This document shows positions 7,895 through 60,109 of a DNA stretch of 64,000 nucleotides, in pieces. The number at the start of each line of letters is the position of its first letter. The first letter of the stretch is position 1. The position numbers and the translations under genes are program-made. The notes under the pieces were generated by a model. That model saw only the letters and a program-made list of their open reading frames with translations, did not search any database and had not been told where the DNA came from. The stretch is from Natrinema thermotolerans DSM 11552 (lineage in GTDB: Archaea > Halobacteriota > Halobacteria > Halobacteriales > Natrialbaceae), in the NCBI GenBank assembly GCA_000337115.1, contig AOIR01000042.1:31852-95851 (forward strand), in the 5' to 3' direction.

Positions 7895-8058
7895 CCCGCG
7901 TTTGTGAAGCTAATCGCCCGACAGAGCGGGGCCGCAACAGGCCACCGCTTTGTATCCGATTTGGAGGGGCTACCTCGTCTAACCGAATCGGTCGAAAACG
8001 CTGCTACTGAACCGTCTACTGTCGGTTCGGTATTAGTCCCAAAACGGGCAGGAACAGG

Positions 8059-8072
8059 ATGGGCGCTGCAGG
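8059..8072. other. attL, displaced tRNA-Arg 3' end
   Basis: ATGGGCGCTGCAGG repeats exactly the 3' end of the tRNA-Arg gene (acceptor strand plus part of the T stem, complement strand) found at 60034-60047. It is 289 bp upstream of the integrase. This is the tRNA fragment pushed to the far side when the element restored the tRNA with its own copy. Confidence 0.88.
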
Positions 8073-8360: not shown

Positions 8361-9452
8361 ATGACCCGACGACCAAACGACTTGGAACCAATCGACCCTC
8401 AAGACGCGCTCGACCTGTATATCCAAACCATCGAAGGCGACAAATCCCAAGCCACGATCTACAGCCACTCCTCACGGTTAGGGCACTTCGTCAGATGGTG
8501 CAACGGAACCAAGAACGACGCCGACGAAAACGGAGCAGAAACCGAAGAAGACGCAGACGAACCACGCGTTACCAACCTGAACAACATAACCGGGCGCGAC
8601 CTCCACCGATACCGACTCTGGCGACGCGACGACGGCGACCTGAACACCGTCTCGGAGAAAACACAGATGGACACGCTCAGAGTGTTCATCCGGTTCTGCG
8701 AGAGCATTGACGCCGTCCGTCCGGACCTTGCGACGAAAGTCGTGTCACCCACGCTCGACACCGGCGAGAACGCCCGCGACGTCATGCTCGACCCGGACGT
8801 CGCACACGGCATCCTTGACTGGCTCAACCAGTACCGTTACGCGTCCACGGTGCACGTCACGCTCGCGCTCGCATGGCGCTGCCACCTACGACGCGGCGGG
8901 CTGCGAGCGCTGGACGTGGACGACTACAACGCCGACGAGAAGTACTTAGACGTCCAACACCGCCCCGAGACGGATACTCCGTTGAAGAACAAGGACGCGG
9001 GGGAACGGTTCGTGGCGTTACGGGACGACACCGCGCAGCTGCTGGATGATTACCTCAACAGTCCGGACCGGCACGACACGGCTGACGACCACGGCCGCGA
9101 CCCCTTGTTAACAACGAGTCACGGGCGACCGCACGTCATGACGATCGCATCGTGGATATGGGGCGTCACTCGCCCGTGCGTGTCCACTGACGAGTGCCCG
9201 GAAGGTCGGGATATCGAGGAGTGCGACGCGGCCGCGCAACGACAAGCCGCGTCCGGGTGCCCAGTATCGGTGTCACCGCACGCAGTCAGGCGTGGCGCGA
9301 TCACGCACTGGTTATCCGAAGACGTGCCGCCGTCCGAGGTTGGGCAGCGAGCGAACGTGGACCCGGACACGATTGACAAGCATTACGATGAGCGTGGGAA
9401 GCAAGCACGAATGGAGCAACGCCGCCGGTTCTTGGACCGGTTCACAGAGTAA
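8361..9452 (+). CDS. Tyrosine recombinase (integrase)
   Basis: A 363-residue XerC/D-like integrase: an N-terminal SAM-like core-binding half (about 15-125) and a catalytic half with Arg near 178 (HLRRGGLRALD), HxxR at 307-310 (PHAVRRG) and the nucleophile Tyr342 (KHYDERG). Four cysteines between about 270 and 300 look like a zinc insert just before the HxxR box. It should catalyse integration and excision at tRNA-Arg, given its place beside attL. It has an ATG directly after TTACCAACC and appears intact, so the element may still be mobile. Confidence 0.92.
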   Translation: MTRRPNDLEPIDPQDALDLYIQTIEGDKSQATIYSHSSRLGHFVRWCNGTKNDADENGAETEEDADEPRVTNLNNITGRDLHRYRLWRRDDGDLNTVSEKTQMDTLRVFIRFCESIDAVRPDLATKVVSPTLDTGENARDVMLDPDVAHGILDWLNQYRYASTVHVTLALAWRCHLRRGGLRALDVDDYNADEKYLDVQHRPETDTPLKNKDAGERFVALRDDTAQLLDDYLNSPDRHDTADDHGRDPLLTTSHGRPHVMTIASWIWGVTRPCVSTDECPEGRDIEECDAAAQRQAASGCPVSVSPHAVRRGAITHWLSEDVPPSEVGQRANVDPDTIDKHYDERGKQARMEQRRRFLDRFTE

Positions 9453-24934: not shown

Positions 24935-24954
24935 CCCCTCGTTTTCACGACGAA

Positions 24955-24992
24955 CGTATCTCTCACCCACCCGTCAGGGCGGTGTTACTGTA
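24955..24992 (+). promoter_or_regulatory. Element-type promoter copy before the ATPase
   Basis: CGTATCTCTCACCCAC with TTACTGTA 28 bp after TATCT; the GTG start at 25001 is 44 bp away. A slightly diverged copy of the repeated promoter module. Confidence 0.55.
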
Positions 24993-25000
24993 ATTACACT

Positions 25001-36949: not shown

Positions 36950-36986
36950 CGTATCTGCCGGTCTTCCCTTCCTATGCGTTACTAAT
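36950..36986 (+). promoter_or_regulatory. Element-type promoter
   Basis: TATCT at 36952, TTACTAAT exactly 27 bp later at 36979, ATG 36991 at 39 bp. Confidence 0.75.
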
Positions 36987-39958: not shown

Positions 39959-40513
39959 TTAGTCTACGGACAGTAATTCAGTAATCTCAGAACTGACAGA
40001 CTCGAACACGTCGGACGCGTGTTCGTATGTCGTGATACCAGTGATAACGACTTTCCCGGATCCGAAAACCAGTACGACCGCATCGAGCCCTTCCGGTCGG
40101 TACACCAGCCCGGGGAACTGCTCCGGTTCGTACTCGGTGTGTTCAAGCCCGAATCCGATTGCGATTGCGTTCAGATTCACAGCCCGTCCGAAGTCCCCGG
40201 TGCACACGATATTCCGGACACCGAACTCGTCGCTGTCCGGGTTGAATTGGATGTCGAGCGCTTGTAACCGCTCGATGAATTCTTCCCGGGCGTCCGCTAA
40301 CCCGGCTACTGATGCAATCCCGACGATGTGGTAACTCCCGGTCCGGTACAGTGTTACCAACGCTCCGTTGTTGAGGCGGATGTGCATCCCTGTGTGCCCG
40401 TCCGGGTCGTACTCCGCTACGTCGCCTAAATCACGGGCAAGGACCGTTAAATCGAGTTCTAAGTCGAACTCCCCGGACCCGACGACGTTAACGATCTCTA
40501 ACCCCTCGCTCAT
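39959..40513 (-). CDS. tbp: Element-encoded TATA-binding protein (divergent TBP)
   Basis: A 184-residue TBP of normal archaeal length with the two-repeat saddle. The second repeat is canonical: RNIVCTGDFGRAVNLNAIA, then EYEPEQFPGLVYR and VVLVFGSGK, with both DNA-kinking Phe residues. The first repeat is unusual: the FPGLVYR position reads HTGMHIRL and the FxSGK position reads TLYRTGSY, so one Phe pair is missing. That predicts altered TATA recognition. ATG 40513 overlaps the stop of the upstream Type IIG gene (TGATG), so the two are probably translationally coupled. Confidence 0.92.
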   Translation of the reverse strand: MSEGLEIVNVVGSGEFDLELDLTVLARDLGDVAEYDPDGHTGMHIRLNNGALVTLYRTGSYHIVGIASVAGLADAREEFIERLQALDIQFNPDSDEFGVRNIVCTGDFGRAVNLNAIAIGFGLEHTEYEPEQFPGLVYRPEGLDAVVLVFGSGKVVITGITTYEHASDVFESVSSEITELLSVD

Positions 40514-43500
40514 CACTTAATCACTTTCAGGAAACTATCCAAGTACTCTTCAATCTCTTCCCTGTGATCCGTTACACCGTAGAGCTCGTACACCGCTTCG
40601 TTCAACGCGTCCACTTCCGCGTCAATCCGGGCTTCCAGGTCGTTGATTGCAGCGTCCAGGTCACTGTGTTCGTCAGCGAACTCGTCCAGACGCTCCGGTA
40701 ATTCCAGGTTCCGGAGTTTATCCCCGGCTATGTACTCGTTCCCGTACTCTTCAAGGAATTCAGTGAGCGCAGCGGCTTCGTGCGTGCTGTGCATCTTCAC
40801 CGTGTAATGCGTGTTGAGACTCACTTCCGTCCCGTCTTGTTCGACAGAGAACGTCCTGATGTTGTAGTCACGTGAGTCTTCGACCGACCGGATTTTCGAC
40901 CGGAACGACACCGTGCGACCGTCGTCTTGGAACGAGTCGAATAGCGTCTCGCGTTCATGCCGGAGTTTCTTCACCTCGCGTTTGGCTTCGTGGATTGTTT
41001 TGGAGTGGTCGGCGATCGTCTCTCGCGTCTCATCATCCGGGAGTTTGATGGGTGCATGGTGCAGGTGTGATGGGCGTACTCGGACCGCGGGTGCGTGACG
41101 GAAGCTCAAGTGCTCGTAGTACGCTTTGTAATAGAAGTCCAGTAGGTTACTGTTCAGCAGGCCAGCAATGTAGTGCGGGTCGAGTGCCGCGCTCGATTCG
41201 CTGAATTCGGCTAATCCGCCGTCGTTCTGCAGCTGCAGGAAGTACGCTGTCTTATTGTAGAATTTCGGGTCTTCGTCCGCGGCGTCTACGACGAACGTTA
41301 GTTCCGGAGCGGTCTCACGGTACGCGATTTTGTCCTTCCCGAACGCTTCCATCTTGTTACTGGACACGTCAGTGTCCTCGTCCGCTTCAACAGCGTCAAG
41401 ATCGATGTACTCCTCAACGTCACCCGGTGCGTCACCCAAGTAGAATTGTTCGAGATTCCTCCCACCGACAACAGGCGTGTCATGATCGTCGTCTTCGGTT
41501 TCGGACGTGTACGGACGGAAGAACCGGGGTTCCTCACCGCGAGAGACCGGTCCACCGCGCCCACCACCGTCCATTTTGCACAAGTCGTTCAGCGGTACGC
41601 ACTCGTCACCGTCTTCCAAGTCTGTTGCCACGCCCCAGAGCTCGTCCGTGATTTGGAAGTTCAACGTGAGCCGGTCAGACCAGTCACTCCACTCATCAAT
41701 GAACCTGTTTTGACTGACCGTGTACCGGTCGTACGTGTCCTCCGTAGTGATTCCGGGGTACTCGTCGCTTTCAAAGTCCGTTTCGAAGTCGTAGTCGGGT
41801 TCGTCACGCCAATCGAGTAGGTCTACCGCGGCGTGGTCTAATGCGTACCCCCATTCGTTCCCGTCAGCGCCTTTCGGGAACACTTTCACGACCTCAGTTT
41901 CGTTCTCTTTCCGGGCGTCTTCGTTGTCTTCCCCTGCGCGTTTCGTCAGTACGATGAGGATCGGGAACGTGTTGACGTCTATACCGAATATCTTGCACCG
42001 TGTAAGGTCAGCGACAAGGTCAATGGTCGCGTTGTCACGGATGTACTTCATAGCGGGTTCCGACGGGTCAGTCACCAACAACGCGTTCGAGACAACGAAT
42101 GCCAGCTGCCCGCCCGGTTCTAACCAGTCCAGTCCCTGTTCGATGAACGCGGTGAAGATGTCCGCTTGGTCTTCGCCGAACACGTCGTGCAGGCGTTCGT
42201 ATTCGTCGATGCGGTGCTGGTCCTGGTTTTCCGCTCGGACGTACGGCGGGTTACCAATCACCCACGTGTAATCATCCTGCTTCGCTTCGATGATCTCGTC
42301 CAAGTCTTCTGCGTTGTCCTCTCTCGCTCGGTAGAACCGGTCGATGCTCGTGGTTTCCGAGCCTTTCGCGGTTAACAACGAGTCCGTGTCGAACGTGGAG
42401 AACGACGGGAGTTCCAAGTGCGCGTCGTCACCAGCGCTACGGCGTTCCTGCAGAACACGGATGAGGAGGTTGGACTGCGCGAGTTGAATGGCGAACGGGT
42501 CAACGTCAAAACCGCGGATCTTCTCGTTTACCAACTCAACCGCGTCCAGTAAGTCGTCGTCCCGTGTCAAATCGTACCCGGAGTCCTTCAACGCGTCAAT
42601 CACACGGCTCATGGCCGCTAAGACGAACGTTCCGCTGCCGCATGCCGGGTCAAGGACGGGTTCGTCGCGTTGTTTGATGTTCCGTTCGTGCGGGGTGAAT
42701 GACGAGTAATCCAGTAGGAATTCGACGGCGGTCGGTGGCGTGTAGTACGCTCCGAGTCGTTTTCGTTTCTCACTGTCCAAGCACTGCTGGTACATCTCCC
42801 CGAAAATGTCACGGTCGATTTCACGGAAATTGAAGTTATCGAACCGTCTGAGAACGGTTTTCAGCACGTCTTCTTCGTAGTGGTACCAGTCGTGCGGGGT
42901 GTCTCTCCGGAACAGCGGGGAGTACACTTCTTCTGCCTGCCGGGACGCGGTGCTCAACGGTTCGAGGAACTTGTTATCTCGGAGTTGGACTTTTTCGTCG
43001 TAGAATTTGATGAACCCGTTACTAATCACCTGCCCGATGATCCCCATATCTTCGAACGTTCGGATGAGCAGTAACCGGTTGTACAGCGTGTTTAGCGTCT
43101 GTAACTGGAACGTTTCACGGATGTCTTCTTTATCCGATTTGTTAGCGGACTCGTAGTCTTTTCCGGTGAGGATTAACCACGACTGCCACTTGTCGTGCCA
43201 TGCACGGGCTTCCTCGTACTCCGCTTCTTTACTGGACAGTTGATTCCGGAGTCCGAGTAGTTCCTCACGGAACTCTGCCACTTCGTCAATCCACCGGTCC
43301 TCGTCAAGATTCCCGGACGCAGCACCGGACAAGTGGTCTCCGTAATCGTATTGCAGATCGTCTGCGACACGGTCAATCGCTTCCTTGTACGGTTCCCAGT
43401 CGATGTGTTCGCGGTACTGTTCACGGAGTTCTTCGCGTTCCGTTTCTATCTCCGCTCGTTCTTCTTCGAACTGTTCGTACTGGTCTTCATATACTTCGAA

Positions 43501-44115
43501 TAACCGTTCGATGCTCGGGAGTAGGTCGTCGTTGAGTGCAGCGCGTGACGCTTCGATGAATTCCTCGAATATCTCCGGGTCGCTGATATCGCGTTGGCTG
43601 GGTTCATCGTTCCATTCCCCGTCGTATGTCCCGGTGATGCGTGTTTTGAGTTGCGCTGCGGTCTGTTCGACGTCGTCGTCGCTTGGGTCGTTGAAAACGC
43701 TGAGTAAGTCGAGTTCGAGTTCTACTGGCGGGTCTTCGTATTCGTTGCTGAAGAAGATGTACCGACCGTCGGTTGCGAGGATGTATTTGAGGCGGAGTTG
43801 GTCGTTGTAGACGCGGGCTTCGCTGATCGCTTGCTCGATTTTGTACCGGGGTTCAGCGTCGCTATGTTCTTCGTCCCACGGTTTCTTGAACTCGCCAACG
43901 ATTCGTGTGACGCCGTCTTTGTCTTCCCAAACGAAGTCTGGCCGGTCGCCGGATTCGATGATTTCTTCGTAGTCGGCGTGTTCTAACCCGAGTTCTTTCA
44001 GGATTGGGACGCCGTAGTTTTTCGCTGCTGTTTCTTCGCCGTGGTCCGGGTCTGTGACTTTCTCGTCAAAGTCGTCGGGGAGGTGTTCTACGAGAGATTC
44101 CGTGAGACCGCTCAT
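40513..44115 (-). CDS. Type IIG restriction-modification enzyme
   Basis: A 1200-residue fused nuclease-methylase (Eco57I-like). A PD-(D/E)xK nuclease lies N-terminally (RPDFVWEDKDG then VGEFKKPW; Asp60, Glu75, Lys77). The N6-adenine methylase has motif I DPACGSGTF (about 487-495) and motif IV NPPY (about 620). A C-terminal target-recognition region (about 820-1160) follows. It would both methylate and cut one DNA site, stabilising the element. A TATA box (TTATAA, about 44143) lies about 28 bp before the ATG. It forms an operon with tbp. Confidence 0.9.
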   Translation of the reverse strand: MSGLTESLVEHLPDDFDEKVTDPDHGEETAAKNYGVPILKELGLEHADYEEIIESGDRPDFVWEDKDGVTRIVGEFKKPWDEEHSDAEPRYKIEQAISEARVYNDQLRLKYILATDGRYIFFSNEYEDPPVELELDLLSVFNDPSDDDVEQTAAQLKTRITGTYDGEWNDEPSQRDISDPEIFEEFIEASRAALNDDLLPSIERLFEVYEDQYEQFEEERAEIETEREELREQYREHIDWEPYKEAIDRVADDLQYDYGDHLSGAASGNLDEDRWIDEVAEFREELLGLRNQLSSKEAEYEEARAWHDKWQSWLILTGKDYESANKSDKEDIRETFQLQTLNTLYNRLLLIRTFEDMGIIGQVISNGFIKFYDEKVQLRDNKFLEPLSTASRQAEEVYSPLFRRDTPHDWYHYEEDVLKTVLRRFDNFNFREIDRDIFGEMYQQCLDSEKRKRLGAYYTPPTAVEFLLDYSSFTPHERNIKQRDEPVLDPACGSGTFVLAAMSRVIDALKDSGYDLTRDDDLLDAVELVNEKIRGFDVDPFAIQLAQSNLLIRVLQERRSAGDDAHLELPSFSTFDTDSLLTAKGSETTSIDRFYRAREDNAEDLDEIIEAKQDDYTWVIGNPPYVRAENQDQHRIDEYERLHDVFGEDQADIFTAFIEQGLDWLEPGGQLAFVVSNALLVTDPSEPAMKYIRDNATIDLVADLTRCKIFGIDVNTFPILIVLTKRAGEDNEDARKENETEVVKVFPKGADGNEWGYALDHAAVDLLDWRDEPDYDFETDFESDEYPGITTEDTYDRYTVSQNRFIDEWSDWSDRLTLNFQITDELWGVATDLEDGDECVPLNDLCKMDGGGRGGPVSRGEEPRFFRPYTSETEDDDHDTPVVGGRNLEQFYLGDAPGDVEEYIDLDAVEADEDTDVSSNKMEAFGKDKIAYRETAPELTFVVDAADEDPKFYNKTAYFLQLQNDGGLAEFSESSAALDPHYIAGLLNSNLLDFYYKAYYEHLSFRHAPAVRVRPSHLHHAPIKLPDDETRETIADHSKTIHEAKREVKKLRHERETLFDSFQDDGRTVSFRSKIRSVEDSRDYNIRTFSVEQDGTEVSLNTHYTVKMHSTHEAAALTEFLEEYGNEYIAGDKLRNLELPERLDEFADEHSDLDAAINDLEARIDAEVDALNEAVYELYGVTDHREEIEEYLDSFLKVIK

Positions 44116-44168
44116 TGATGAGAGATTCTTCTCACGTTCACGTTATAAGTGTGCGTCCTTCGTTTGGC

Positions 44169-44205
44169 TGTATCTCTCACCCTTCTCTCCCGAGGGTGTA
44201 CTGTG
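44169..44205 (+). promoter_or_regulatory. Element-type promoter, diverged copy
   Basis: TGTATCTCTCACCC; TATCT at 44171, the TTACYAAY position has decayed to GTACTGTG, and the GTG start at 44210 lies 39 bp away. Confidence 0.5.
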
Positions 44206-44209
44206 TCGT

Positions 44210-44389
44210 GTGGTCAAGGATACCAACGAGAACACCCGAAATGGGGAGTGGCGGCCGGACTGCCCGCACTGCGGACAACCGTGCGCGAAGGTCCGCGTGT
44301 CGGAGAACGTCACGCGGTACGAGTGCAGTGACTGCCACCAAACACCTGGTCTCATCGAGCGCATCACGGCGTTCTTCGGAGTGTCGTGA
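44210..44389 (+). CDS. 59-aa zinc-ribbon protein
   Basis: From GTG 44210 the protein carries CPHCGQPC and CSDCHQ, a zinc ribbon, and ends in a helix (LIERITAFFGVS). The start fits the 39-bp promoter spacing. Function unknown. Confidence 0.65.
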   Translation: MVKDTNENTRNGEWRPDCPHCGQPCAKVRVSENVTRYECSDCHQTPGLIERITAFFGVS

Positions 44390-44428
44390 CGGGGGGGTGT
44401 CCGGAACTTTTCAGGCGGTTCACCCGGC

Positions 44429-44465
44429 CGTATCTGTCGCCCATCCCGGTCTACGTGTTACTAAT
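44429..44465 (+). promoter_or_regulatory. Element-type promoter
   Basis: CGTATCTGTCGCCCATCC; TATCT at 44431, TTACTAAT exactly 27 bp later at 44458. The ATG is part of the TTACTAATG box (44464, 33 bp). The nearly consensus copy. Confidence 0.8.
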
Positions 44466-44766
44466 GAGTACACTCATGAGCAGCATCCCAACCATCGAGG
44501 ACGTGATCGTGTTCGCCGCGGTGCTCGCAATCCTCACCGCCGGCACGTTCGCCGCGGTCGTCGCAATCCACCCTGACGCGTACGTGTCCGTCTCCGACGG
44601 TGACGCCAGCATCGTACTCTGCGAGGAAACCATCCCAGAACCGTTACAGAACGCGACAGAAACGACACCGGCCGAGCACGCACCGCTCATCCCGTTCGTT
44701 GACGTGGAGGGTGACTGTGTAATCGTCGGTGAACTCAACCTCACACCGGGCACTGGCGAGGTATGA
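44464..44766 (+). CDS. Membrane-anchored exported protein
   Basis: A 100-residue protein with one N-terminal membrane helix (residues 15-37, VIVFAAVLAILTAGTFAAVV) followed by an acidic extracytoplasmic domain holding two cysteines (LCEE and GDCV) that may form a disulfide. It overlaps the next gene by 4 bp. Confidence 0.6.
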   Translation: MSTLMSSIPTIEDVIVFAAVLAILTAGTFAAVVAIHPDAYVSVSDGDASIVLCEETIPEPLQNATETTPAEHAPLIPFVDVEGDCVIVGELNLTPGTGEV

Positions 44767-44924
44767 TGTGGTTCGGGTACGGTGATGCGCTGTTCGTTGC
44801 AGGTTTCGTGTTCTACCTCGTAGAAAATGGCGCGTCGCCCGTTGAGATATGGGTTCTCGGGTTTGTGGTTACGTTCATTGAAGCGTTTGCTCGCGGGTTC
44901 ATCGAAGCCGCGAGGGAAGCATGA
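44763..44924 (+). CDS. 53-aa membrane protein
   Basis: Two hydrophobic segments (LFVAGFVFYLV and WVLGFVVTFIEAFA). ATGA overlaps on both sides mark it as the middle gene of a three-gene operon. Unknown function. Confidence 0.6.
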   Translation: MMWFGYGDALFVAGFVFYLVENGASPVEIWVLGFVVTFIEAFARGFIEAAREA

Positions 44925-45154
44925 CCGTCCGTGAACGGGTGCGTGGGTTGGTTGTGAAGTGGCGTCGGTGGCGTCTTCTGCGTGCGTACATGCGCGTAGC
45001 TCACCAGCGGCGGGTCGGGGACGGCCGGTCGAGCGTTCGCGGCGGGTTCGTGAATCACTTAATTGCTCTCGAATCAATGGAGCGTGACGGTCTCATCGAG
45101 ATCCACGACATCGACGGTGCGAGGGTGTACGAGTGGCGCTGGCCTGACCAGTAA
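44921..45154 (+). CDS. Basic helical small protein
   Basis: A 77-residue protein with a strongly basic first half (VVKWRRWRLLRAYMRVAHQR) and an acidic end. It is coupled to the upstream membrane genes by a 4-bp overlap. It may bind nucleic acid or phospholipid; unknown. Confidence 0.6.
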   Translation: MTVRERVRGLVVKWRRWRLLRAYMRVAHQRRVGDGRSSVRGGFVNHLIALESMERDGLIEIHDIDGARVYEWRWPDQ

Positions 45155-45168
45155 CACTCCTACTCGGG

Positions 45169-45205
45169 CGTATCTGGCCGTGTTACCCGTCCACGTGTTA
45201 CCTAC
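45169..45205 (+). promoter_or_regulatory. Element-type promoter
   Basis: CGTATCTGG; TATCT at 45171, TTACCTAC exactly 27 bp later at 45198, ATG 45215 at 44 bp. Confidence 0.65.
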
Positions 45206-45214
45206 GAGTACATC

Positions 45215-45415
45215 ATGACACCAGAAAACCTCTCCCGCGCCGTCCAACGCGAAGCACGCGACCAACTTACCAACACCGGCGGTGACGACCCGCCGTCACG
45301 CGCCGAATGCCGGCAAGCGGTCCGGGACGCACTCTCACTCTGGGGTGACACGGGACTCGCAGCTGAGGCGTGGATTGACGAACAAACCGCAGAACTCCGT
45401 AGGAACGCCCCGTGA
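45215..45415 (+). CDS. Hypothetical helical protein
   Basis: A 66-residue helical acidic protein (LSRAVQREARDQLTN, then AAEAWIDEQTAELRR) with a single Cys. It overlaps the following membrane-protein gene by 4 bp. No family recognised. Confidence 0.6.
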   Translation: MTPENLSRAVQREARDQLTNTGGDDPPSRAECRQAVRDALSLWGDTGLAAEAWIDEQTAELRRNAP

Positions 45416-45741
45416 CACCCGACCAGCGCCGGACGTTTTTGCTCGCGGCGGTTGGTGTAACGCATGGGTCGCTCGACCTTGTCACGACGCACTGGGCACT
45501 CTCACTCACCGGGCGATCGTCGGAAGCGAACCCGGTGATGCGTGCCGTGCTTACCAACGCTCCAGGATGGGCGTTCCACGTGACCGTGTTCACCGGTATC
45601 GCAGTGATTGCAGCGTGCGTGTTCTGCATTGACCACGTCTACGGGTACCAACGAGTCGGGACGGGTGTACTCTCCGCGCTCACAGTCGCGGGATGCTTGC
45701 TCGTGGCGAATAACCTTGCGTGGGTAGTTGTCGCTGCGTGA
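45412..45741 (+). CDS. DUF5658-like membrane protein
   Basis: A 109-residue protein from GTG 45412 with three to four membrane helices. The motif LVTTHWAL...SSEANPVM (about residues 22-43) resembles the DxxxTxxxL...EANPxM pattern of DUF5658 membrane proteins. Biochemical role unknown. Confidence 0.6.
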   Translation: MTPDQRRTFLLAAVGVTHGSLDLVTTHWALSLTGRSSEANPVMRAVLTNAPGWAFHVTVFTGIAVIAACVFCIDHVYGYQRVGTGVLSALTVAGCLLVANNLAWVVVAA

Positions 45742-45745
45742 CCGG

Positions 45746-45782
45746 CGTATCTGTCACTTATCCCGGTGCCCGGTCTACGTGT
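45746..45782 (+). promoter_or_regulatory. Element-type promoter, orphan copy
   Basis: CGTATCTGTCACTTATCC; TATCT at 45748. No convincing start codon or TTACYAAY box follows at the expected place; it looks like a decayed or displaced duplicate in the 220-bp gap before the methylase. Confidence 0.5.
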
Positions 45783-45920
45783 AATCGGGAGGAGCACTCC
45801 AACGTCAGACTACGTCTGCTTGGGTTGCTACCATCAACCGCTCCTCCCACACGCCCTTACCCCTACCCGTTCACTGCTTTTCCGGTACGTCCAGTGTTAC
45901 GCGAATACTATCCATCATGA

Positions 45921-45957
45921 CGTATCTCTCAGTGTTACCCGGGCACGGGTTACCAAC
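45921..45957 (+). promoter_or_regulatory. Element-type promoter
   Basis: CGTATCTCTCAG; TATCT at 45923, TTACCAAC exactly 27 bp later at 45950, ATG 45962 at 39 bp. Confidence 0.75.
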
Positions 45958-45961
45958 GCGC

Positions 45962-46543
45962 ATGACGTTCGAAGCTGTCGGGCACGTGTACGAAGAGGGA
46001 GACGACAAACACGACACACCGGTTGAGTTCGTCGCACCGCTCATCGAAGCGGTCGGCGGATTCGATTTAGACCCGTCCGCGTCGCAGTCGTCGGACCTCG
46101 CGGAACGGAACGTTACCAAAGACGAGGACGGTCTGTCTACCCCGTGGCACGGTGACGTGTGGCTAAACCCGCCGTACTCCGGTGTTAGTGACTGGTTAGA
46201 GTACGGTCGTGATGAGTACTATCGAGGTGCTGTGGACTCGATTATCGCGCTCGTGTTCGCCAGGACGAGCACGCAGTGGTTCCACAACCACGCGACGACA
46301 GCGGATTTAGCGTGTTTCGTGGAAGGTAGATTGTCGTTCGCCGGGTCGGATCACTCCGCTCCTGCACCGTCGGTCGTGCTCGTGTGGGGTGACGCCGCAG
46401 GGAACCCGGACGTGGTGGAGTACTTAGATTCGCAGGGGTTCCTCGTTGAGCTCCGGGACCGGGACGTGGGCGCGCAGGACAGGTTGGACTCGTTCGCGCC
46501 CGGGGTGAACGCGAGAGAGATCCCGGGATCCTCGGCTGACTGA
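45962..46543 (+). CDS. Dam-like phage N6-adenine methyltransferase
   Basis: A 193-residue methylase of the small phage Dam-like family. DTPVEFVAPLIEAV (about residues 18-31) and GFDLDPSAS (about 33-41, SAM-binding) precede DVWLNPPYSG (about 61-70, catalytic NPPY). It methylates adenine, probably for protection from restriction or for regulation. ATG 45962 fits the 39-bp promoter spacing; the longer frame (45917) would start before TATCT. Confidence 0.85.
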   Translation: MTFEAVGHVYEEGDDKHDTPVEFVAPLIEAVGGFDLDPSASQSSDLAERNVTKDEDGLSTPWHGDVWLNPPYSGVSDWLEYGRDEYYRGAVDSIIALVFARTSTQWFHNHATTADLACFVEGRLSFAGSDHSAPAPSVVLVWGDAAGNPDVVEYLDSQGFLVELRDRDVGAQDRLDSFAPGVNAREIPGSSAD

Positions 46544-46571
46544 CCCGGCTACCGCGAAGGGTTCTCCGCGA

Positions 46572-46608
46572 CGTATCTGTCGCTCACACCGGTCTCTGTG
46601 TTACTAAT
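46572..46608 (+). promoter_or_regulatory. Element-type promoter
   Basis: CGTATCTGTCGC; TATCT at 46574, TTACTAAT exactly 27 bp later at 46601, ATG 46616 at 42 bp. Confidence 0.75.
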
Positions 46609-46615
46609 ACGTGTA

Positions 46616-47956
46616 ATGGCATCCATCGTAGAGAAGACCGTGGACGGGTACGGCCCGTACTTATACAAGGTCACGTACAACGCAAGCACCGGGAAGCAGC
46701 ACTGGGAATTCCTCGGAAAAGCGGGGTCGGTTGACGAGGACCCCGGCCCGGTCGCGGACGATTACCAACCGGACACGGCACGCTCCGTGAACGGCGTTAC
46801 ACGGTCGCGTGTGGACGACCCGGCAGCCGCCGCACTCCTTGACCGACTCGGTGACGAAGGCACTGCAGGCACGTACGAAGACCTCGTAGACGCCCTCGCA
46901 GTCGAAGGCAGCAAAGCATACGACTCCGGCGACATGCGGTCACTCCTCAACCTGATGGACACCGACGATGAGGAGCTCACAGACGCCATCGACACAATCC
47001 AAACCGAACGTCGGTCGAACTCGTTCGGAACGACCACCAGAACGAGCGAGTACATCCCAGCGGACGAAGACGAAGTCCGTGAAGCTCTCGATACGATTGA
47101 AGCGAAAATCGGTGTACGGCCCGGTGAGATTGATGAAGACGACGAGTACAGTGTCACGCTCACTAACACGGATATCCGGATGCCGACCGACGCGGACGCT
47201 GCCGCTGACCTCGTGAACGGTGTCGTGGGATCCGTGACGGATTCGTGGCGCGTGGCAGAACCGGACCAGCAAGCGAGCGTGCAAGCAGTGTTAGAGGACA
47301 CAGTCGGCGTCGACGCAGTCCGGGAAGCGAAGCGAAACGCGGGCGACCCGGACGCACTCGGATTCGCGCACCCGGACACGATACCAACGAACGCCAACGA
47401 TGAGGGGAAAACACCGGTCACAGACCTGTACGGCATCGGCCCCGCGACCGCGAGAGAAAACCACCCGAACGGCGACGAGATCGCGTTAGAAGACTACGGT
47501 GAGTTATCCAGCCTGCAGCGAGAGCGCGTTGCCGTGGACGTGGACATTAGAGAGCACCCGGACGAGTTCCGTGACGTTGTTGATCGCGTCTCAGACCGGG
47601 CGTCGGACCCGACGACGACCATTATCGGTGCGCTGCAAATGACTGATTCGCAGATAGAAGACTTGTACGCGTCAGATCAGGGTGACACGGTGTCGGTCGG
47701 CGCGACCGGTGAGGACTGGGGCGGGATAAGCCAGGATGAAATGTCACGCGTGGAGTCCGTCGAACACCGCGAAGACGAGGTGCACGTGGAGACAGCGAGC
47801 GGTGGGGAGTCGCGGTACTCAAGCATGTACTGGGAATTACTCGACCCTGTGCTGCCGGAGGACGCGGTGATGCGGTCCGGGGACGACGACACGCACCCGC
47901 TCGAAATCGAGCTCGGGAACGGGGACTCGGTTGTCCTCGCACCGAAGGTCGAATAA
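46616..47956 (+). CDS. GPY-LGKAG family protein 1 with HhH motif
   Basis: A 446-residue acidic protein. Its first 45 residues (GYGPYLYKVTY then WEFLGKAGSVDEDPGPV) form a module shared with the genes at 49318 and 50342. A helix-hairpin-helix-like segment (PVTDLYGIGPATARENHPNG) is near residue 270, and the C-terminal 60 residues are beta-rich (VETASGGESRYSSMY). It also shares whole-length similarity with the 50342 protein. HhH suggests DNA contact; biochemical role unknown. Confidence 0.65.
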   Translation: MASIVEKTVDGYGPYLYKVTYNASTGKQHWEFLGKAGSVDEDPGPVADDYQPDTARSVNGVTRSRVDDPAAAALLDRLGDEGTAGTYEDLVDALAVEGSKAYDSGDMRSLLNLMDTDDEELTDAIDTIQTERRSNSFGTTTRTSEYIPADEDEVREALDTIEAKIGVRPGEIDEDDEYSVTLTNTDIRMPTDADAAADLVNGVVGSVTDSWRVAEPDQQASVQAVLEDTVGVDAVREAKRNAGDPDALGFAHPDTIPTNANDEGKTPVTDLYGIGPATARENHPNGDEIALEDYGELSSLQRERVAVDVDIREHPDEFRDVVDRVSDRASDPTTTIIGALQMTDSQIEDLYASDQGDTVSVGATGEDWGGISQDEMSRVESVEHREDEVHVETASGGESRYSSMYWELLDPVLPEDAVMRSGDDDTHPLEIELGNGDSVVLAPKVE

Positions 47957-47975
47957 CACGCTCTCACGGTTACTA

Positions 47976-48179
47976 ATGAAGGAGTTACACGCTCAGTCGC
48001 AGGCACTCGTCTTAACCGTGACACTGCACACCCCCATTACAATCAAGGAGCTTACCGCCCGGACTGGTGTTACGCAACTCACTGTCCGAGCGGTCCTCCC
48101 ACGACTCGTAGCTAAAGAGTACATCGACAGGGACGGTGACACTCTCACGCCCGGTGTGAACGCCCCAGAACCCGCGTGA
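47976..48179 (+). CDS. Small winged-helix protein
   Basis: A 67-residue protein with a winged helix: ITIKELTARTGVTQLTVRAV (helix-turn-helix) followed by the wing YIDRDGDTLTPG. Its ATG lies inside TTACTAATG. It is convergent with tfb (6 bp apart) and may regulate local transcription. Confidence 0.65.
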   Translation: MKELHAQSQALVLTVTLHTPITIKELTARTGVTQLTVRAVLPRLVAKEYIDRDGDTLTPGVNAPEPA

Positions 48180-48185
48180 CACGGG

Positions 48186-49184
48186 TTATGCGGAGTCCGG
48201 GACACCGTACGCGTCCAAGATTTCCGGGTACCGGTGCCGAACCGTGACGACGGACGCGTCAGTTGCTTGCGCGACGTCTACTTGCGTGACACCGTCAATG
48301 TGAATCACGGTCGCGGCGTACACCGCGCCGGCTGCGAGCGCGGTCGGCGCGCGCCCGGAATGCACGTTCTCTTTCTCGGCTGCGTCAAGCATGTCCACAG
48401 CGGTCCCTCGGACGGCTGCCGGGTCGTCTACGTCCAGGTTATCAACGTATCCTGGCACGTATTCGCGCGGGTCTGCAGGCGCAGCTTCCACGCCGAGTTC
48501 ACGTGCGACGTACCGGACGTCTGAGTCCACGCGTGACGGGTCCTGTAACCGTGACACGTCGTACACGTCACCCGGCTGTCGCGGAGTCCCGCATTGCCGT
48601 GCAGCGAGCGTGATGCACGCGGTCGCCATGCCTTCAATCGACCGACCGCGCATCAAATCCCGGTCAACACACTGCTTGAACATGACGCACGCCGTCTCTT
48701 CAACGTGGCCCGGGAGACCGAGCGCGGACGTCATGCGCTGCACTTCCGCTAACCCGGTTTTCTTCGTGCGTTCGCTTCGCGTGGACGCCTTACTACGCGT
48801 GTTCCACGTTCTGAGGCGTTCCATCTGTTGCTGCTTCGCGTCCGATAACGTGTTCCCGGATGCGTCGCGGTTCTTCCAGTCGATGTTCGTGGAGAGCCCC
48901 TTATCGTGGATTTTGTCCGTGGTGGGTGCGCCGACGCGGCTTTTCTCCTCGCGTTCCGTCGCGTTGTACGCTCGCCATTCCGGGCCGCGGTCAATGACCT
49001 GGCCGTCTGTTACTAACCCGCAGTCCTCGCACACTGTCTCCCCAGTGTCTTGGGTGAGATTACCGCCGCATTCGTCGCACGTTTGCTGGGGTGTCGTGCC
49101 CTCGTCGGCGTCGGTGGTTTGTTCACTGTTTGTACGCGTTTCACCGTTTTCACGGGTTCTAAAGCGTGTAGGAGTACCTGTCAT
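48186..49184 (-). CDS. tfb: Element-encoded transcription factor B (TFB)
   Basis: A 332-residue TFB of full length. N-terminal zinc ribbon CDECGG...CEDCG (about residues 35-56), B-reader/linker with EWRAYNATEREEKSRVG, then two cyclin repeats (about 130-225 and 235-330); the second ends APTALAAGAVYAATVI and DASVVTVRHRYPEILD, the BRE-reading helix-turn-helix. TFB recruits RNA polymerase to TBP-bound promoters and sets BRE preference. With the element TBP it could form a dedicated initiation pair. Confidence 0.93.
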   Translation of the reverse strand: MTGTPTRFRTRENGETRTNSEQTTDADEGTTPQQTCDECGGNLTQDTGETVCEDCGLVTDGQVIDRGPEWRAYNATEREEKSRVGAPTTDKIHDKGLSTNIDWKNRDASGNTLSDAKQQQMERLRTWNTRSKASTRSERTKKTGLAEVQRMTSALGLPGHVEETACVMFKQCVDRDLMRGRSIEGMATACITLAARQCGTPRQPGDVYDVSRLQDPSRVDSDVRYVARELGVEAAPADPREYVPGYVDNLDVDDPAAVRGTAVDMLDAAEKENVHSGRAPTALAAGAVYAATVIHIDGVTQVDVAQATDASVVTVRHRYPEILDAYGVPDSA

Positions 49185-49276
49185 TGTTGATTATGCATAG
49201 TGCCCCCATGACCAAGGGTGACGGATACGCCGCGTTACTAACGGGGGTGCAGGCGTGGTGTCCTGCGGTTCAAGCC

Positions 49277-49317: not shown

Positions 49318-50295
49318 ATGACGACGATCGTCCACAAGAGAATCAACGGGTACGGACCGTACGCGTACCGAGTTACCTACGAGGGAGGGGAGCATCACTG
49401 GAAGTACTTAGGGAAAGCCGGGGAGGTAGACACGGCACCCGGCCCGGTCACTGGCGACGGTCGAGGCGGCCGTGACACCGGTACTGACGCCCCCGAAACC
49501 GACGACGACCACACGGACTCGGGTGGCGACGAGACGCGTGTAACGCACGCTGACGCCCCACGTGACCGCGCACACTACGACGACACACTCGACCGGATCC
49601 TCGAAGGAGAATCCTACGGTGACGCGGACGACTGGTACGACTCAGAAGCTCGGTGGGCAGTCGATCAAATCACAGAACACTACCACGAACACGACATCCG
49701 AGTCTCACTTACCAACATCGAAGACATAGACCGGCTGCGTGACACTGTCGCGGACATCGAAGAACTCCGGGACGCCGGTGTACTGGACGGGATCTACAAA
49801 ATCACGACCACCCCGGGAGAGAACCTCGCAGACAAACACGGCGGGGTGTCCGGTGTGAACGCTGAATACGAACCTGAACCGCAGGACATCGTCGGGAACA
49901 GCCTTGGTTACCAACCCACGATAACACTGAACGGTGACACGTACCGGAACGGCGACGACGACACGGTGACGTCGTACGGAACGGAGATCGAGGACACCCG
50001 GCACGCCCTCTGGCACGAATCCGCGCACCACGTTCACTTACGAGATTACCACGCCGAAGGCGTGGATATCGAGTCCGTCATGGATGCGGAGGACGGCGGT
50101 GTATGGGACCGCATGCACGCCGCTATGGAACCGTACCGCGACACAATTAACAACGAGTACGGGCACGGGTTAGACCACGACCCGATCGAGTTCTACGCAG
50201 AAGCGAAGGCGCGGGAGATGCGCGGTGACGACTTACCAACCGACGTCCGGGAAGCTATGCACGCCGTCGAAGCCGATAACATCCTCACAGAGTAA
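49318..50295 (+). CDS. GPY-LGKAG family protein 2, HExxH metallopeptidase-like
   Basis: A 325-residue protein with the shared N-terminal module (GYGPYAYRVTYEGG then WKYLGKAGEVD, residues 11-39) but a different C-terminal half. That half holds ALWHESAHHVHLRDYH, a HExxH zinc site at residues 233-237, and a possible third ligand Glu in PIEFYAEAKA (about 291). It is therefore a candidate gluzincin-type metallopeptidase. The start at 49318 is set by the 39-bp promoter spacing and by the module start. Confidence 0.65.
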   Translation: MTTIVHKRINGYGPYAYRVTYEGGEHHWKYLGKAGEVDTAPGPVTGDGRGGRDTGTDAPETDDDHTDSGGDETRVTHADAPRDRAHYDDTLDRILEGESYGDADDWYDSEARWAVDQITEHYHEHDIRVSLTNIEDIDRLRDTVADIEELRDAGVLDGIYKITTTPGENLADKHGGVSGVNAEYEPEPQDIVGNSLGYQPTITLNGDTYRNGDDDTVTSYGTEIEDTRHALWHESAHHVHLRDYHAEGVDIESVMDAEDGGVWDRMHAAMEPYRDTINNEYGHGLDHDPIEFYAEAKAREMRGDDLPTDVREAMHAVEADNILTE

Positions 50296-52047: not shown

Positions 52048-52210
52048 TTTTTCGTACTGTGTAATACGGGTTCTGAGTTTTTTCGGAGAGGCACCCTACA
52101 CACCTTTATATGTTTTAAGTGGGGGTAGATATGGTTAACACTTAAAGAATAAAAAGGGGTGTAGGGTGGGTTCGGTTTAATCCTGAGAACCCGTATTAGA
52201 GTATAGGCCG
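52048..52210. repeat. 163-bp inverted-arm repeat, copy 2
   Basis: Second copy of the repeat at 27981-28143, in the same orientation, with most differences in the central spacer. It ends 30 bp before the TATCT box of the TFB-like gene. Confidence 0.85.
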
Positions 52211-52238
52211 GTTCGGCGGGGGGGCAATCACTGAGTAA

Positions 52239-52279: not shown

Positions 52280-52711
52280 ATGAGCGCAGACACGATTACG
52301 ACCCCGGACCACCTTGACCCAGTCCAGTACTTACCAACCGCTGCCGACGCCCGTGAGCGCGGTATTCCGGAACGAGCGCTCGATCTCGCAGAGGACATCC
52401 TGAACGCAACGTTCCCAGCTGCGAAGTACGCAGGCGCGCGCCGGTCAGCGCTCGCAGGCGCGGCGCTGTACGCCGCCACAGCAGCGTTTGTCGGGCGTGA
52501 CGTGTCACAGGACACCGTCGGCGACGCGACCGGCACAACGCCTGTCTCGATACGGTCGTGGATGCACGACATGGCCGCGCTCGCGGTAGAAGAGGAGTCG
52601 GTGGACGTGGCGGTGTACTGTGAGTCGGTGGGTGAGTTACGCGGTGTGTGGGAGCGCCTGCAGTACTTGACGGGTGGTGGTGGTATCCCGGGTCTGCCAG
52701 TTGACGCATGA
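52280..52711 (+). CDS. Truncated TFB-like protein (one cyclin repeat)
   Basis: A 143-residue protein resembling only the C-terminal cyclin repeat of TFB: RRSALAGAALYAATAAFVGR then DTVGDATGTTPVSIRSWMHD align with the matching part of the TFB at 48186. It lacks the zinc ribbon and first repeat, so it cannot recruit polymerase in the normal way; it might bind BRE or compete with TFB. ATG 52280 fits the 39-bp spacing; GTG 52274 is the alternative. Confidence 0.75.
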   Translation: MSADTITTPDHLDPVQYLPTAADARERGIPERALDLAEDILNATFPAAKYAGARRSALAGAALYAATAAFVGRDVSQDTVGDATGTTPVSIRSWMHDMAALAVEEESVDVAVYCESVGELRGVWERLQYLTGGGGIPGLPVDA

Positions 52712-53771: not shown

Positions 53772-54968
53772 ATGCCAGAAGACGAGTACACTTACACGAT
53801 TGAAACCGAAGACGACGACAGTCCGAACCTGTACAAGCAAGCAGCCAACGAAGCCGACAACAAGTACGGAGAAGAAGTGATCGCTGTCCGCAACCTCCTC
53901 ACCAGCCAGCTGAAAGGCAAAGGAGAGTTCGACGGTGCCAGTGAATGCGCAGACGCCGGTCACGCACTCGCAGCAATCGCCCGGCAACACGGGAAAGGCG
54001 CACACCTCGCGGGAAAAATCGACAAGGTCGCCGGGAAAGTCGCAGGCGACTCCTCCTACAACGGCCAGAAAGACGGTGTGCTGGGCGGTATCGAAGCGCC
54101 AGTAGTCGAAGTGGCGCGTGAACAGGAAGAGCAGGAACTCGAAGACCTAGCCGGCAACGGGCACGCGTACACGCTCGACCGCGGAGTCGGGTTAGACGAG
54201 TACGTCGAGGGGCACCTCGTCCGCGTGGTGAAACTGTCGAACACAGACTACGTGTCCGACTACACGTACGAATTCGAATTCGATGACGGAACCAGCGTAG
54301 AATTCGAGGATAACGACCACCGGAACCCGAACGAATTCTACGACCAGATAAGCGTGGCCGCACCGGTCCGCGTCCGCGACCGATTCGCGTCCAACAAGGC
54401 GCGAGAGGACATTAGCGGCGACACGTCCGAGGATGACTGGGCGGAAGAGAAGTACCGTGAACTGTCACTCGGCCCGGAAGAACGGCCGTGGGGCCTGGAC
54501 TGGAACGAGGTAATCACGCACCTCGAACACGCCGAAGGTGAAGACATGGCGGAACCGCCAGCCGGCCCGCGAACGGACGCATGGGAGTCGCTGCAGCGGT
54601 CCATCAAGAACGGGCGCGCGGCGCACGACCGGCAGTCAGTCATTGACGCTGCGGACGGCGCTGTCCACTACAACGAAAACCACGACGAAGTCTGGGTGCC
54701 TACCTCGATGGTGGACGCGGCGTGCGAGGACTACGCGACGAATCGTGAGAAACTCGTTCGGGAACTGGACGCTCGCGGTGTCACGACCGACGAAATCAGC
54801 GGTGTCGGGTGCTCGCAGTCACAAGACGGTGTCCGGTGGTGGCGGTTGAAGGCGTCGGCGGTTGAGATGCCGCGAATCGTGCAGTCGATTGACGAAGCCG
54901 ATACGTTCGCATCCGCTGGGAAAGCGGCGGCTGACGGCGGGACAACCGAGTTCGGAGGTGACGAGTAA
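53772..54968 (+). CDS. Hypothetical protein of the replication module
   Basis: A 398-residue acidic protein with three visible parts: a helical N-terminus (about 15-120), a beta-rich middle (TYEFEFDDGTSVEFEDND) and a C-terminal helical region including VWVPTSMVDAACEDYATNRE and DGVRWWRLK that resembles a winged-helix DNA-binding domain. Its stop overlaps the helicase start (TAATG). It is probably a helicase loader, origin-binding or accessory protein; no family is recognised. Confidence 0.6.
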   Translation: MPEDEYTYTIETEDDDSPNLYKQAANEADNKYGEEVIAVRNLLTSQLKGKGEFDGASECADAGHALAAIARQHGKGAHLAGKIDKVAGKVAGDSSYNGQKDGVLGGIEAPVVEVAREQEEQELEDLAGNGHAYTLDRGVGLDEYVEGHLVRVVKLSNTDYVSDYTYEFEFDDGTSVEFEDNDHRNPNEFYDQISVAAPVRVRDRFASNKAREDISGDTSEDDWAEEKYRELSLGPEERPWGLDWNEVITHLEHAEGEDMAEPPAGPRTDAWESLQRSIKNGRAAHDRQSVIDAADGAVHYNENHDEVWVPTSMVDAACEDYATNREKLVRELDARGVTTDEISGVGCSQSQDGVRWWRLKASAVEMPRIVQSIDEADTFASAGKAAADGGTTEFGGDE

Positions 54969-57055
54969 TGCCCCCGGGCGTGAGTGAGACACCGTTCGAG
55001 GACGTCGTCAGTAGCGGCGTGTACCGGGGGCTGGATGCGGGCCTGCAAGACGGGTCAGTGCACGGGTTAGACACTGCGTCAGTGGACGACTCAGTGTTGC
55101 TGTGGGGGCCGCCGGGCGCGGGGAAGACGACGGAAAGCCTCGCGCGTGTCGCGGGGTACGTGGACGAGCATGAGGACGTCTCACCGCGGGACGTGACGGT
55201 CGTGACGTACCGTGGGAAGCTCGCGGAGTCCATCAAGACTCGGGCGAAGGACTGGGATATATTCCCGTTCGTTGACGATCTGGAAAAGCCGTACGAGTAC
55301 TGGGGGACGGGGCACGCGGTCGCTACGCGTGTCACCGACTTCCTCGGGCACATTGACGGGGACTCCCCCGGTCACGCAGGGATGGTTGACGGGTCGGCAG
55401 CGCGTGCGTTCTGCGACGAACACGGCATCGAGTACCGGACTGGTGTCAAGTGGCAGGACTCACAGTGGGACGTGTTCCACGACCTGTACTGCTACTGTAA
55501 GCAGAACTTGTTGGACGTCGGGTCGTGGCGGCACATCACCGACGACGACCTCCTCGGGACGGTACGGACGAACACGATCGCGTACCGGAAACTGCAGGCG
55601 TTCCACGACAAGTGGGGTAGTTCGTCGTCGTTCGAACGTGCTGTGCAGGCGTGGGAAGCGTGGAAGCGAGACCAGCAGTGTTACGACTTCTACGAGCAGT
55701 TAGAAGCCGGTCTCGCGGCCGGGCTACCGGGCGACGAGTTCGTTGTGATTGACGAACTACACGACGCGTACCCGCTCATGACGATGCTGTTCGAGCAGTG
55801 GATTGACGCGGCCGGGACAGCGGTCGCGGCCGGTGACCCGGACCAGGTGTGTAACGCGTTTAGCGGTGCGTCACGGGAGATATTCCAAGGACTACCGGCC
55901 CGCGTGGACACGGAAATCCCAACGGTGAAACTCCCGAAGAGCCACCGGGTCCCGGACGAGCACTTCGAAGCCGCCGCGTCAATCCTGTCCCGGCACCACA
56001 CCCCGCCGGAACTCGAAACGGCTGGGGGAGGCAAGATTTACCGGCACACGACGGACATGTCCATGGAACACGACACGCAGGACGGGTGGCGGACGTTCCC
56101 CGCGACTGCGTCGCAGTCCCCACTCCGTCTCCACGAAACGTACGGAGCGGACATGATCCACGCGGCGCGGACGCAGACGCTCGTTGACGGGATCGGCGCG
56201 TGCTTGGACGAAGGTGGTGTCGTGTACCAGTCACAGGACGGCGTTGCTGGGGACTGGGCACGGCGTTTGAGATTACTGCACGTGCTGCGGACGGTCCGCG
56301 GTGTGCGGCCGGCGCAGCAAGTGTCTGTCGTGGGTGACGGTGACGAGTACGGTCGTGACAGTAACACTGACCGTGACGTGTCGGTGACGACACCAGATGC
56401 GGCTGACGTGTCACTGTCACCGGAACAGGCGCGTGTGCTCCTCAAACACACTGACGAGGGGTATTTGGACGTGTCGAGATCGGACGCGTTGGAACGTGTG
56501 AACGAGCGAGAGATGGAGCAGAACAGGCTCTCTCGCGTGACTATGCCGGTGCTTGCGGACATGGTGTCACGGGAATGGTGGGCGGTCTACGGGCAAGGCG
56601 TGGAGTCCATCGAGAACCTCGTGTACCTGAACGCTCGCGCCGGGTTCACCGGGAACCGGGACCGTGACGTGACGGCCATGCGGGCAGCGTGGGACCGGTA
56701 CGGTGACGACCTCCCGGAGACACCGTCGGACGTAGAGACGCGGCTGTGGACGTTACACGCGGCGAAGGGCGACGAAGCGGAGCACGCGGTCGTGTACACG
56801 GGTGTGACCGGGAAAGTCCGTGACGGTGTCCGTGAGGATGAACGGCAGGCGGCGAACGAATCACGGACGTGGTACGTCGGCATGACACGCGCGACGGACG
56901 GGCTGCACATCGTTCGTGACGCGTTCGACATGACGTGCGATAACTTCGAAGTCGTGCCGGGCGACTTGGAACCAGAGGCGGTCAAGGCGGCGCGTGAGCG
57001 GCGGCGCGAGCGTCGTGAGGGTGACGGCCCCGGTGAGGGGACGGCGGCGGGCTGA
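54968..57055 (+). CDS. Superfamily 1 (UvrD/Rep-like) DNA helicase
   Basis: A 695-residue SF1A helicase. Walker A GPPGAGKTT (about 47-55), motif Ia VVTYRGKLAESI, motif II VVIDELH (about 259-265), motif III GDPDQVCNAFSG (about 287-298), motif V TLHAAKGDEAEH (about 596-607) and motif VI YVGMTRAT (about 636-643). It unwinds DNA 3' to 5' in replication or repair. Coupled with the upstream gene and followed by a primase-like gene, it is the likely replicative helicase of the element. Confidence 0.9.
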   Translation: MPPGVSETPFEDVVSSGVYRGLDAGLQDGSVHGLDTASVDDSVLLWGPPGAGKTTESLARVAGYVDEHEDVSPRDVTVVTYRGKLAESIKTRAKDWDIFPFVDDLEKPYEYWGTGHAVATRVTDFLGHIDGDSPGHAGMVDGSAARAFCDEHGIEYRTGVKWQDSQWDVFHDLYCYCKQNLLDVGSWRHITDDDLLGTVRTNTIAYRKLQAFHDKWGSSSSFERAVQAWEAWKRDQQCYDFYEQLEAGLAAGLPGDEFVVIDELHDAYPLMTMLFEQWIDAAGTAVAAGDPDQVCNAFSGASREIFQGLPARVDTEIPTVKLPKSHRVPDEHFEAAASILSRHHTPPELETAGGGKIYRHTTDMSMEHDTQDGWRTFPATASQSPLRLHETYGADMIHAARTQTLVDGIGACLDEGGVVYQSQDGVAGDWARRLRLLHVLRTVRGVRPAQQVSVVGDGDEYGRDSNTDRDVSVTTPDAADVSLSPEQARVLLKHTDEGYLDVSRSDALERVNEREMEQNRLSRVTMPVLADMVSREWWAVYGQGVESIENLVYLNARAGFTGNRDRDVTAMRAAWDRYGDDLPETPSDVETRLWTLHAAKGDEAEHAVVYTGVTGKVRDGVREDERQAANESRTWYVGMTRATDGLHIVRDAFDMTCDNFEVVPGDLEPEAVKAARERRRERREGDGPGEGTAAG

Positions 57056-60033: not shown

Positions 60034-60047
60034 ATGGGCGCTGCAGG
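60034..60047. other. attR, within the 3' end of tRNA-Arg
   Basis: ATGGGCGCTGCAGG, identical to attL at 8059-8072. It covers the 3' acceptor strand and the end of the T stem of the tRNA gene, so integration leaves the tRNA intact. Confidence 0.88.
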
Positions 60048-60109
60048 ATTTGAACCCGCGGCAGCTTGGTCCGAAGCCAAGTACTCTGTCCAGGCTGAGC
60101 TAAGCGCCC
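60036..60109 (-). tRNA. tRNA-Arg(UCG)
   Basis: On the minus strand a 74-nt cloverleaf. Acceptor GGGCGCT pairs with AGCGCCC; the anticodon stem CTTGG/CCAAG holds the loop CTTCGGA with anticodon UCG (Arg); the T stem GCGGG/CCTGC has loop TTCAAAT. CCA is not encoded, as usual here. It is the integration target. Confidence 0.95.

Follow-up and report, generated by a model that had tools for sequence, protein, structure and literature searches.

TATA-Binding Proteins of Haloarchaea and Conflict Systems

Haloarchaea have many paralogs of the TATA-binding protein (TBP) and of transcription factor B (TFB). In structures of TBP-TFB-DNA complexes, the stirrup of TBP repeat 2 touches TFB as well as the upstream half-box, and repeat 1 touches the downstream half. 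Here we analyzed the TBP of a 52-kb element integrated in Natrinema thermotolerans DSM 11552, using a stretch of 64,000 nucleotides (nt) of a haloarchaeal contig (AOIR01000042.1, positions 31,852 to 95,851; hereafter the window). The TBP gene is the last gene of a restriction-modification (RM) operon, and with a probability of about 0.58 we propose that its product would be a restriction-operon TBP, i.e., an alternative initiation factor that is encoded by a defense operon and belongs to a TbpC-like family in which one half of the saddle is altered.

The closest proteins described so far are the TbpC-like TBPs, which lack the N-terminal pair of intercalating Phe residues and keep the C-terminal pair. 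Their function was left open, loss of function was considered for tbpC and restriction was not mentioned (PMC4230888). The genes tbpC, tbpD and tbpF are dispensable in Halobacterium (PMC2121645). The window TBP shares with this group the two repeats, the loss of the N-terminal Phe pair and the retention of the C-terminal one; it differs in that its repeat-1 change (GHTG) exceeds that of most members, and here the group is tied to defense operons. A passage of PMC12458937, citing Aravind 2022, lists TBP proteins as components of the TOTE/TALON conflict systems. As described there, TBPs are encoded with antiviral effectors, as in the window, but these systems also carry a tetratricopeptide repeat (TPR)-cold-shock protein and TALON is bacterial. 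No partner with TPR and cold-shock domains was recognized among the larger neighbors of the window TBP that were scanned with Pfam. A literature search found no paper tying haloarchaeal TBPs to RM operons, although absence from such a search is not proof.

The Window TBP Is Encoded at the End of a Type IIG Restriction Operon

The start of the TBP gene overlaps the stop codon of a gene for a type IIG-like RM enzyme by 4 nt (TGATG), and judged from the sequence the TBP is translationally coupled to this enzyme (Table 1). The enzyme carries its N6-adenine methylase and its specificity domains on a single long chain (Eco57I, E=1e-20). Its N terminus contains PD-(D/E)xK-like residues that can be recognized by eye (PDFVW...EFKK), and Pfam gave no nuclease match. 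A preliminary description of this DNA had reported a full-length TBP and a full-length TFB on one element, which the domain searches bear out, but it missed both the coupling to the type IIG enzyme and the loss of the repeat-1 Phe pair.

The window TBP is full length with a divergent repeat 1. Its AlphaFold2 model has the TBP saddle fold with a predicted local distance difference test (pLDDT) score of 94 and a template modeling (TM) score of ~0.8-0.9 to archaeal and eukaryotic TBPs. The four intercalating positions read HYFF, so that His and Tyr replace the Phe pair of repeat 1 and the F/F of repeat 2 is kept. Repeat 1 contains GHTGMHIR...TLYRTGSY in place of QFPGLVYR...LIFRSGK, and the intact repeat 2 includes the TFB-contact stirrup YEPEQFPGL. 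Because the repeat-1 Phe pair is gone and repeat 2 and the stirrup are kept, we classify the protein as TbpC-like. One other TBP is encoded in the host (contig C33).

One close relative of the element was found, the sister element (genome G078, contig C2; loci L057, L117-L120), which also encodes the TBP. The ratio of nonsynonymous to synonymous substitution rates (dN/dS) between the two TBP genes is 0.14, which indicates purifying selection and therefore a gene that is not decaying. The RM gene has ~95% DNA identity to its counterpart in the sister (L057) and identity falls to ~75% in the TBP gene, a sign of recombination near the 3' end of the RM gene. In a phylogenetic tree the window TBP is in the same 42-row group as the TBP of the Halobacterium plasmid pHS4, with a support of 87 in the Shimodaira-Hasegawa-like approximate likelihood ratio test (SH-aLRT), but the window pair is on a long branch.

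Altered TBPs Travel With Restriction and Defense Operons

TBP matches from 292 Halobacteria genomes were ranked solely by similarity to the window TBP; the sample is enriched for window-like TBPs, and rows that are related do not count as independent. AT-rich RM genes escaped a simple codon-based gene caller; the gene contexts are based on open reading frames (ORFs), which were classified with iterated profiles seeded from the enzymes of the window, of virus HRTV-9 and of Halobacterium plasmids. These profiles mark enzyme families, namely methyltransferase (MTase), Hsd and SNF2-helicase, and not proven defense activity.

An altered Phe quartet was found in 78 TBPs, 70 of which have an MTase/Hsd/SNF2-helicase gene next to them or no more than 3.5 kb away (59 within 250 nt and 11 more within 3.5 kb), versus a restriction or defense gene near 0 of the 15 TBPs with the quartet FFFF. 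After removal of near-duplicates the proportions were 61/69 and 0/13 (p=5e-10), and the same profiles detected none of these enzyme genes in 400 kb of host chromosome. Most altered quartets are YYFF, the window has HYFF, and three are altered in repeat 2 instead. In the tree, the FFFF TBPs group into a single clade (SH-aLRT 99) that excludes the altered TBPs. Four of the eight altered TBPs outside the 70 are located by other defense genes (BrxC-PglZ, type II restriction endonuclease (REase), TmtA-like and HmaC-like); L060, also one of the eight, is on a 3-kb contig. TBP genes directly downstream of an enzyme gene overlap or abut it in 21 of 37 cases. The partner systems comprise type IIG, type I hsdM-S-R, DrmMI with a DrmD/BrxHII-like helicase, BREX BrxC-PglZ and type II REase. 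TFB matches among the fetched TBP loci were confined to the sister element, a flank in the sister's genome and a 31% match at L082. The altered-TBP family travels with restriction/defense operons, essentially without TFBs.

HRTV-9, a tailed virus, encodes a type IIG enzyme (gp40) and a TBP (gp39; 42% identical) in the order seen in the window. The likeness lies in this gene order on a mobile genome, and the differences are that HRTV-9 has no TFB match and few boxes of the GTATC type described below. The Halobacterium plasmids pHS4 and pNRC100 have the order MTase, helicase, TBP with a 4-nt overlap and encode DrmMI/DrmD-like enzymes; on pNRC100 the annotation splits the MTase into two parts, separated by an ISH27 transposase. 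Halobacterium sp. DL1 has a gene with the annotation 'TATA-box-binding protein C' a short distance after the gene for a type I restriction R subunit.

Several restriction/defense operons have two different TBPs (L098, L099, L105, L131, L132, L074 and L075), and the altered Phe positions often differ between the two. In L074 the order is tbp-hsdM-hsdS-hsdR-tbp, and in L132 two TBPs accompany DrmMI with a DrmD/BrxHII-like helicase. A heterodimer or a division of labor is possible.

The TBP could be a structural or DNA-recognition part of the restriction system that bends or marks DNA, for example invader promoters, for the enzyme and does not start transcription. The tight coupling with the enzyme gene and the recurrence with several defense types, sometimes as two different TBPs, would fit such a role, as would the listing of TBPs in TOTE/TALON systems in the passage mentioned above (PMC12458937). 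On the other hand, the TFB-contact stirrup (YEPEQFPG) is kept in 73 of 78 altered TBPs, and TBPs that are 85-91% identical are found by a type I HsdR operon in L079 and by a DrmD-like helicase in L073 and L082. Near-identical TBPs beside unrelated enzymes are hard to explain for a specific subunit and fit a transferable regulator better. A structural role is therefore unlikely. It is also very improbable that the TBP is a decaying, non-functional copy that rides with the RM genes. The loss of the intercalating Phe pair and the loss of function considered for tbpC (PMC4230888) would agree with decay, but the dN/dS of 0.14, the full-length open frames with a conserved repeat 2 at dozens of loci and the recurrence of this kind of replacement throughout a diverse family do not.

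The GTATC Promoters and the Element TFB

The preliminary description had noted a repeated non-canonical promoter on the element, and this was confirmed as a GTATC box at the TATA position that is specific to this element pair. GTATC is present at -50 to -34 of the start codon in 12/35 cases in the window element and 12/33 in the sister, versus 2/299 in 400 kb of host chromosome (Fisher p ~2e-11 and ~1e-11, respectively). The counts are 2/48 in HRTV-9 and 0/16 in a TFB-bearing Halorubrum virus, which has no TBP match. The box has the form GTATC[T/C] at ~40 nt before start codons, extended to GTATC[T/C]GTC, with the consensus cGTATCTGTCac; the element promoters can also be written as GTATCTGTC. 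The RM-TBP operon has the TTATAA promoter and no GTATC box. The GTATCTCTCACCC box at 44170 was rejected as an operator of the RM gene, as it precedes a putative Zn-ribbon ORF on the opposite strand. Likewise, a composite promoter GTATCT...GTTACTAA was rejected as one unit, because its GTTACYAA part is a separate strand-polar motif that is also intragenic and antisense.

This motif, TTAC[CT]AA[CT], occurs 62 times on the plus strand and 0 times on the minus strand of the element, 42/3 times in the sister and 4/4 times in 400 kb of the host; the plasmid pR1SE has nearly no copies. It is not a promoter part, since it is found inside genes, both sense and antisense. It may serve a helicase, translocase or primase as a polar guide, or be a site of strand-biased modification.

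The TFB gene of the element has a GTATC box, and the host encodes several other TFBs. A shorter protein, starting at 52280, had been called TFB-like. The similarity is there but weak (PF00382 E=0.046, Cyclin_C E=0.0059, TFB chains E=0.27), so that this name is plausible and unproven, and the AlphaFold2 model is poor (pLDDT 51).

The preliminary description suggested that TBP and TFB form a dedicated pair that drives the GTATC promoters independently of the host factors, which would make the RM gene an incidental neighbor. The two known elements each retain TBP, TFB and box, the TFB gene itself has the box, and a box whose upstream half is normal and whose downstream half is abnormal would match the altered repeat 1. 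However, the TBP family is tied to restriction/defense operons and almost everywhere lacks a TFB, and the window TBP gene is located inside an RM operon with a canonical promoter. Moreover, all three parts are combined in just two elements among up to 391 genomes, and since these two are related, the joint presence is not independent evidence. TBP, TFB and promoter box coexist on the element and on the one close relative found, but co-occurrence of TBP and TFB fails across the related TBP loci and a co-evolved pair is unsupported. We consider a dedicated pair rather unlikely.

Proposed Role of the Restriction-Operon TBP

Controller (C) proteins of RM systems and alternative sigma factors are small transcription factors that are encoded with an RM operon or element and set its expression. 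The restriction-operon TBP would work by a comparable logic, but it would be a general initiation factor and not a helix-turn-helix (HTH) regulator or sigma factor. It would be made together with the enzyme from the host-type TTATAA promoter, join a TFB by way of the C-terminal half, which is intact, and load RNA polymerase at a limited group of promoters that lack a TATA-like downstream half-box. Defense or element genes may thereby be expressed on their own schedule. The candidate target is the GTATC[T/C]GTC box and the candidate partner the element TFB; this step is the least certain and somewhat doubtful. As the RM-TBP operon is under TTATAA and the TFB gene has GTATCCGTCACCC at ~-45, a possible order would be host-driven RM-TBP followed by the GTATC promoters, including that of TFB. 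The dN/dS of 0.14, the intact stirrup and the near-identical TBPs with different enzymes make us prefer, with moderate confidence, a transferable transcription factor to a subunit specific to the enzyme.

Alternatively, the TBP could act on the host by competing for host TFB or promoters, and so damp or redirect host or rival-virus transcription during infection or element induction. A kept TFB-contact surface with an altered DNA contact is the design expected of a competitor, and such TBPs are carried by viruses and mobile elements. Yet this would not explain why operons on chromosomes and megaplasmids place such TBPs next to RM genes, and tbpC is present and dispensable in Halobacterium with no toxicity reported (PMC2121645), which makes a competitor improbable.

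Several observations weigh against an initiation factor of the restriction operon. Firstly, tbpC was not transcribed in Hbt. salinarum PHH1 under the tested conditions and was easily knocked out (PMC4230888). Secondly, the RM-TBP promoter in the window is canonical and hence gives no sign of autoregulation via the GTATC box; in HRTV-9, such a TBP is accompanied by few GTATC boxes. Thirdly, the synonymous divergence (dS) between the sister elements is 0.24 for the RM gene versus 1.0 for the TBP gene, so that enzyme and TBP do not share one common recent history. Lastly, operons with two TBPs (tbp-hsdM-S-R-tbp; MTase-TBP-helicase-TBP) could also point to a structural part. The more general finding is the defense-operon TBP family, and the mechanism outlined above is a proposal.

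The Integrated Element and Its Relatives

The preliminary description placed TBP and TFB on a small element, within 9 kb. It is one integrated element, but it comprises 52 kb (~8061-60109) and is integrated at a tRNA-Arg gene (Table 1). The sister element aligns over window positions 8061 to 60109, which supports these borders, and the two integrases are 92% identical. Searches with the helicase and a 446-aa protein, which covered 292-391 genomes as well as plasmids, phages and viral contigs, found no close relatives beyond the sister and none with the box that lacked TBP or TFB, and viral-contig scans with TBP and TFB as queries gave no relatives.

Table 1. Positions of the main features in the window (aa, amino acids; att, attachment site).
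Feature	Position	Strand	Remarks
TBP, TbpC-like	39959..40513	-	184 aa; PF00352 twice (125 bits); repeat 2 intact
Type IIG-like RM enzyme	40513..44115	-	1200 aa; Eco57I, N6_Mtase, TaqI_C; PADLOC REase_MTase_IIG + MTase_II
TTATAA, canonical TATA-like box of RM-TBP operon	44146..44151	-	~31-36 nt before ATG
GTATCTCTCACCC box	44170..44182	+	41 nt before putative Zn-ribbon ORF (GTG ~44211, stop 44389)
TFB	48186..49184	-	332 aa; zinc ribbon PF08271 + two cyclin repeats PF00382
GTATCCGTCACCC box	49216..49228	-	~45 nt before TFB start codon
Short protein	52280..52711	+	Weak similarity to TFB cyclin repeat; has GTATCT box
GTATCT box	36951..36956	+	Example of element promoter family
Further GTATCT boxes	24956, 30371, 37554, 37860, 44430, 45170, 45922, 46573, 49278, 52240		
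GTATCC boxes	39384, 50297		
Left att core	8058..8071	.	14 nt, ATGGGCGCTGCAGG, common with tRNA-Arg 3' end
Tyrosine recombinase (integrase)	8361..9452	+	Weak PF00589 + XerC-like matches; left element end, beside core
UvrD-like helicase	54968..57055	+	Element backbone
tRNA-Arg (TCG)	60035..60109	-	Integration target and right border; carries core repeat at 3' end

In the left part of the element (10273-27397), 12 genes follow the order of their matches in pR1SE, at 25-35% identity; two of the matches are weak. Given this collinearity of the module with the pR1SE core, the element resembles a vesicle-type element that has integrated; the module is absent from the sister element. The likeness to the pR1SE-like plasmid-vesicle elements (apHPVs, PMC10818511) lies in this gene order, and pR1SE itself differs in having no TBP or TFB match. 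The apHPVs often carry defense systems, and TBP is not mentioned in their description (PMC10818511).

Several other features were observed on the element. A pair of 160-nt repeats (27981-28143 and 52048-52211), which are ~95% identical, 24 kb apart and imperfectly palindromic with an AT-rich center, is a candidate origin, bidirectional promoter or recombination site. A 207-aa protein (36094-36717, minus strand) with an AT-rich promoter has a weak match to a sigma-70 region 4-like HTH (E=2.4e-5, under the curated cut-off) and is possibly another element regulator. Three paralogous proteins (46616-47956, 49318-50295 and 50342-51706) have a common N-terminal domain and are almost limited to this element family; the two that were scanned, the first and second, gave no Pfam match.

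Implications for Archaeal Immunity

Unrelated haloarchaeal immune operons (type I, type II/IIG, DrmMI/DrmD-like and BREX) may have one modular part, a half-altered TBP or a pair of them. Defense systems could in this way bring their own general initiation factor, to express or arm the system, for example during infection when ordinary transcription is subverted; we put this forward tentatively, at slightly less than even odds. The element TBP is probably a defense-operon factor first, and merely possibly half of an element-dedicated TBP-TFB pair. Through their tie to restriction and other defense operons, the TbpC-like TBPs, earlier left as possibly dead or very specialized, gain a likely role that can be tested, which suggests that a general transcription factor was co-opted as a regulator, or a part, of archaeal immunity.

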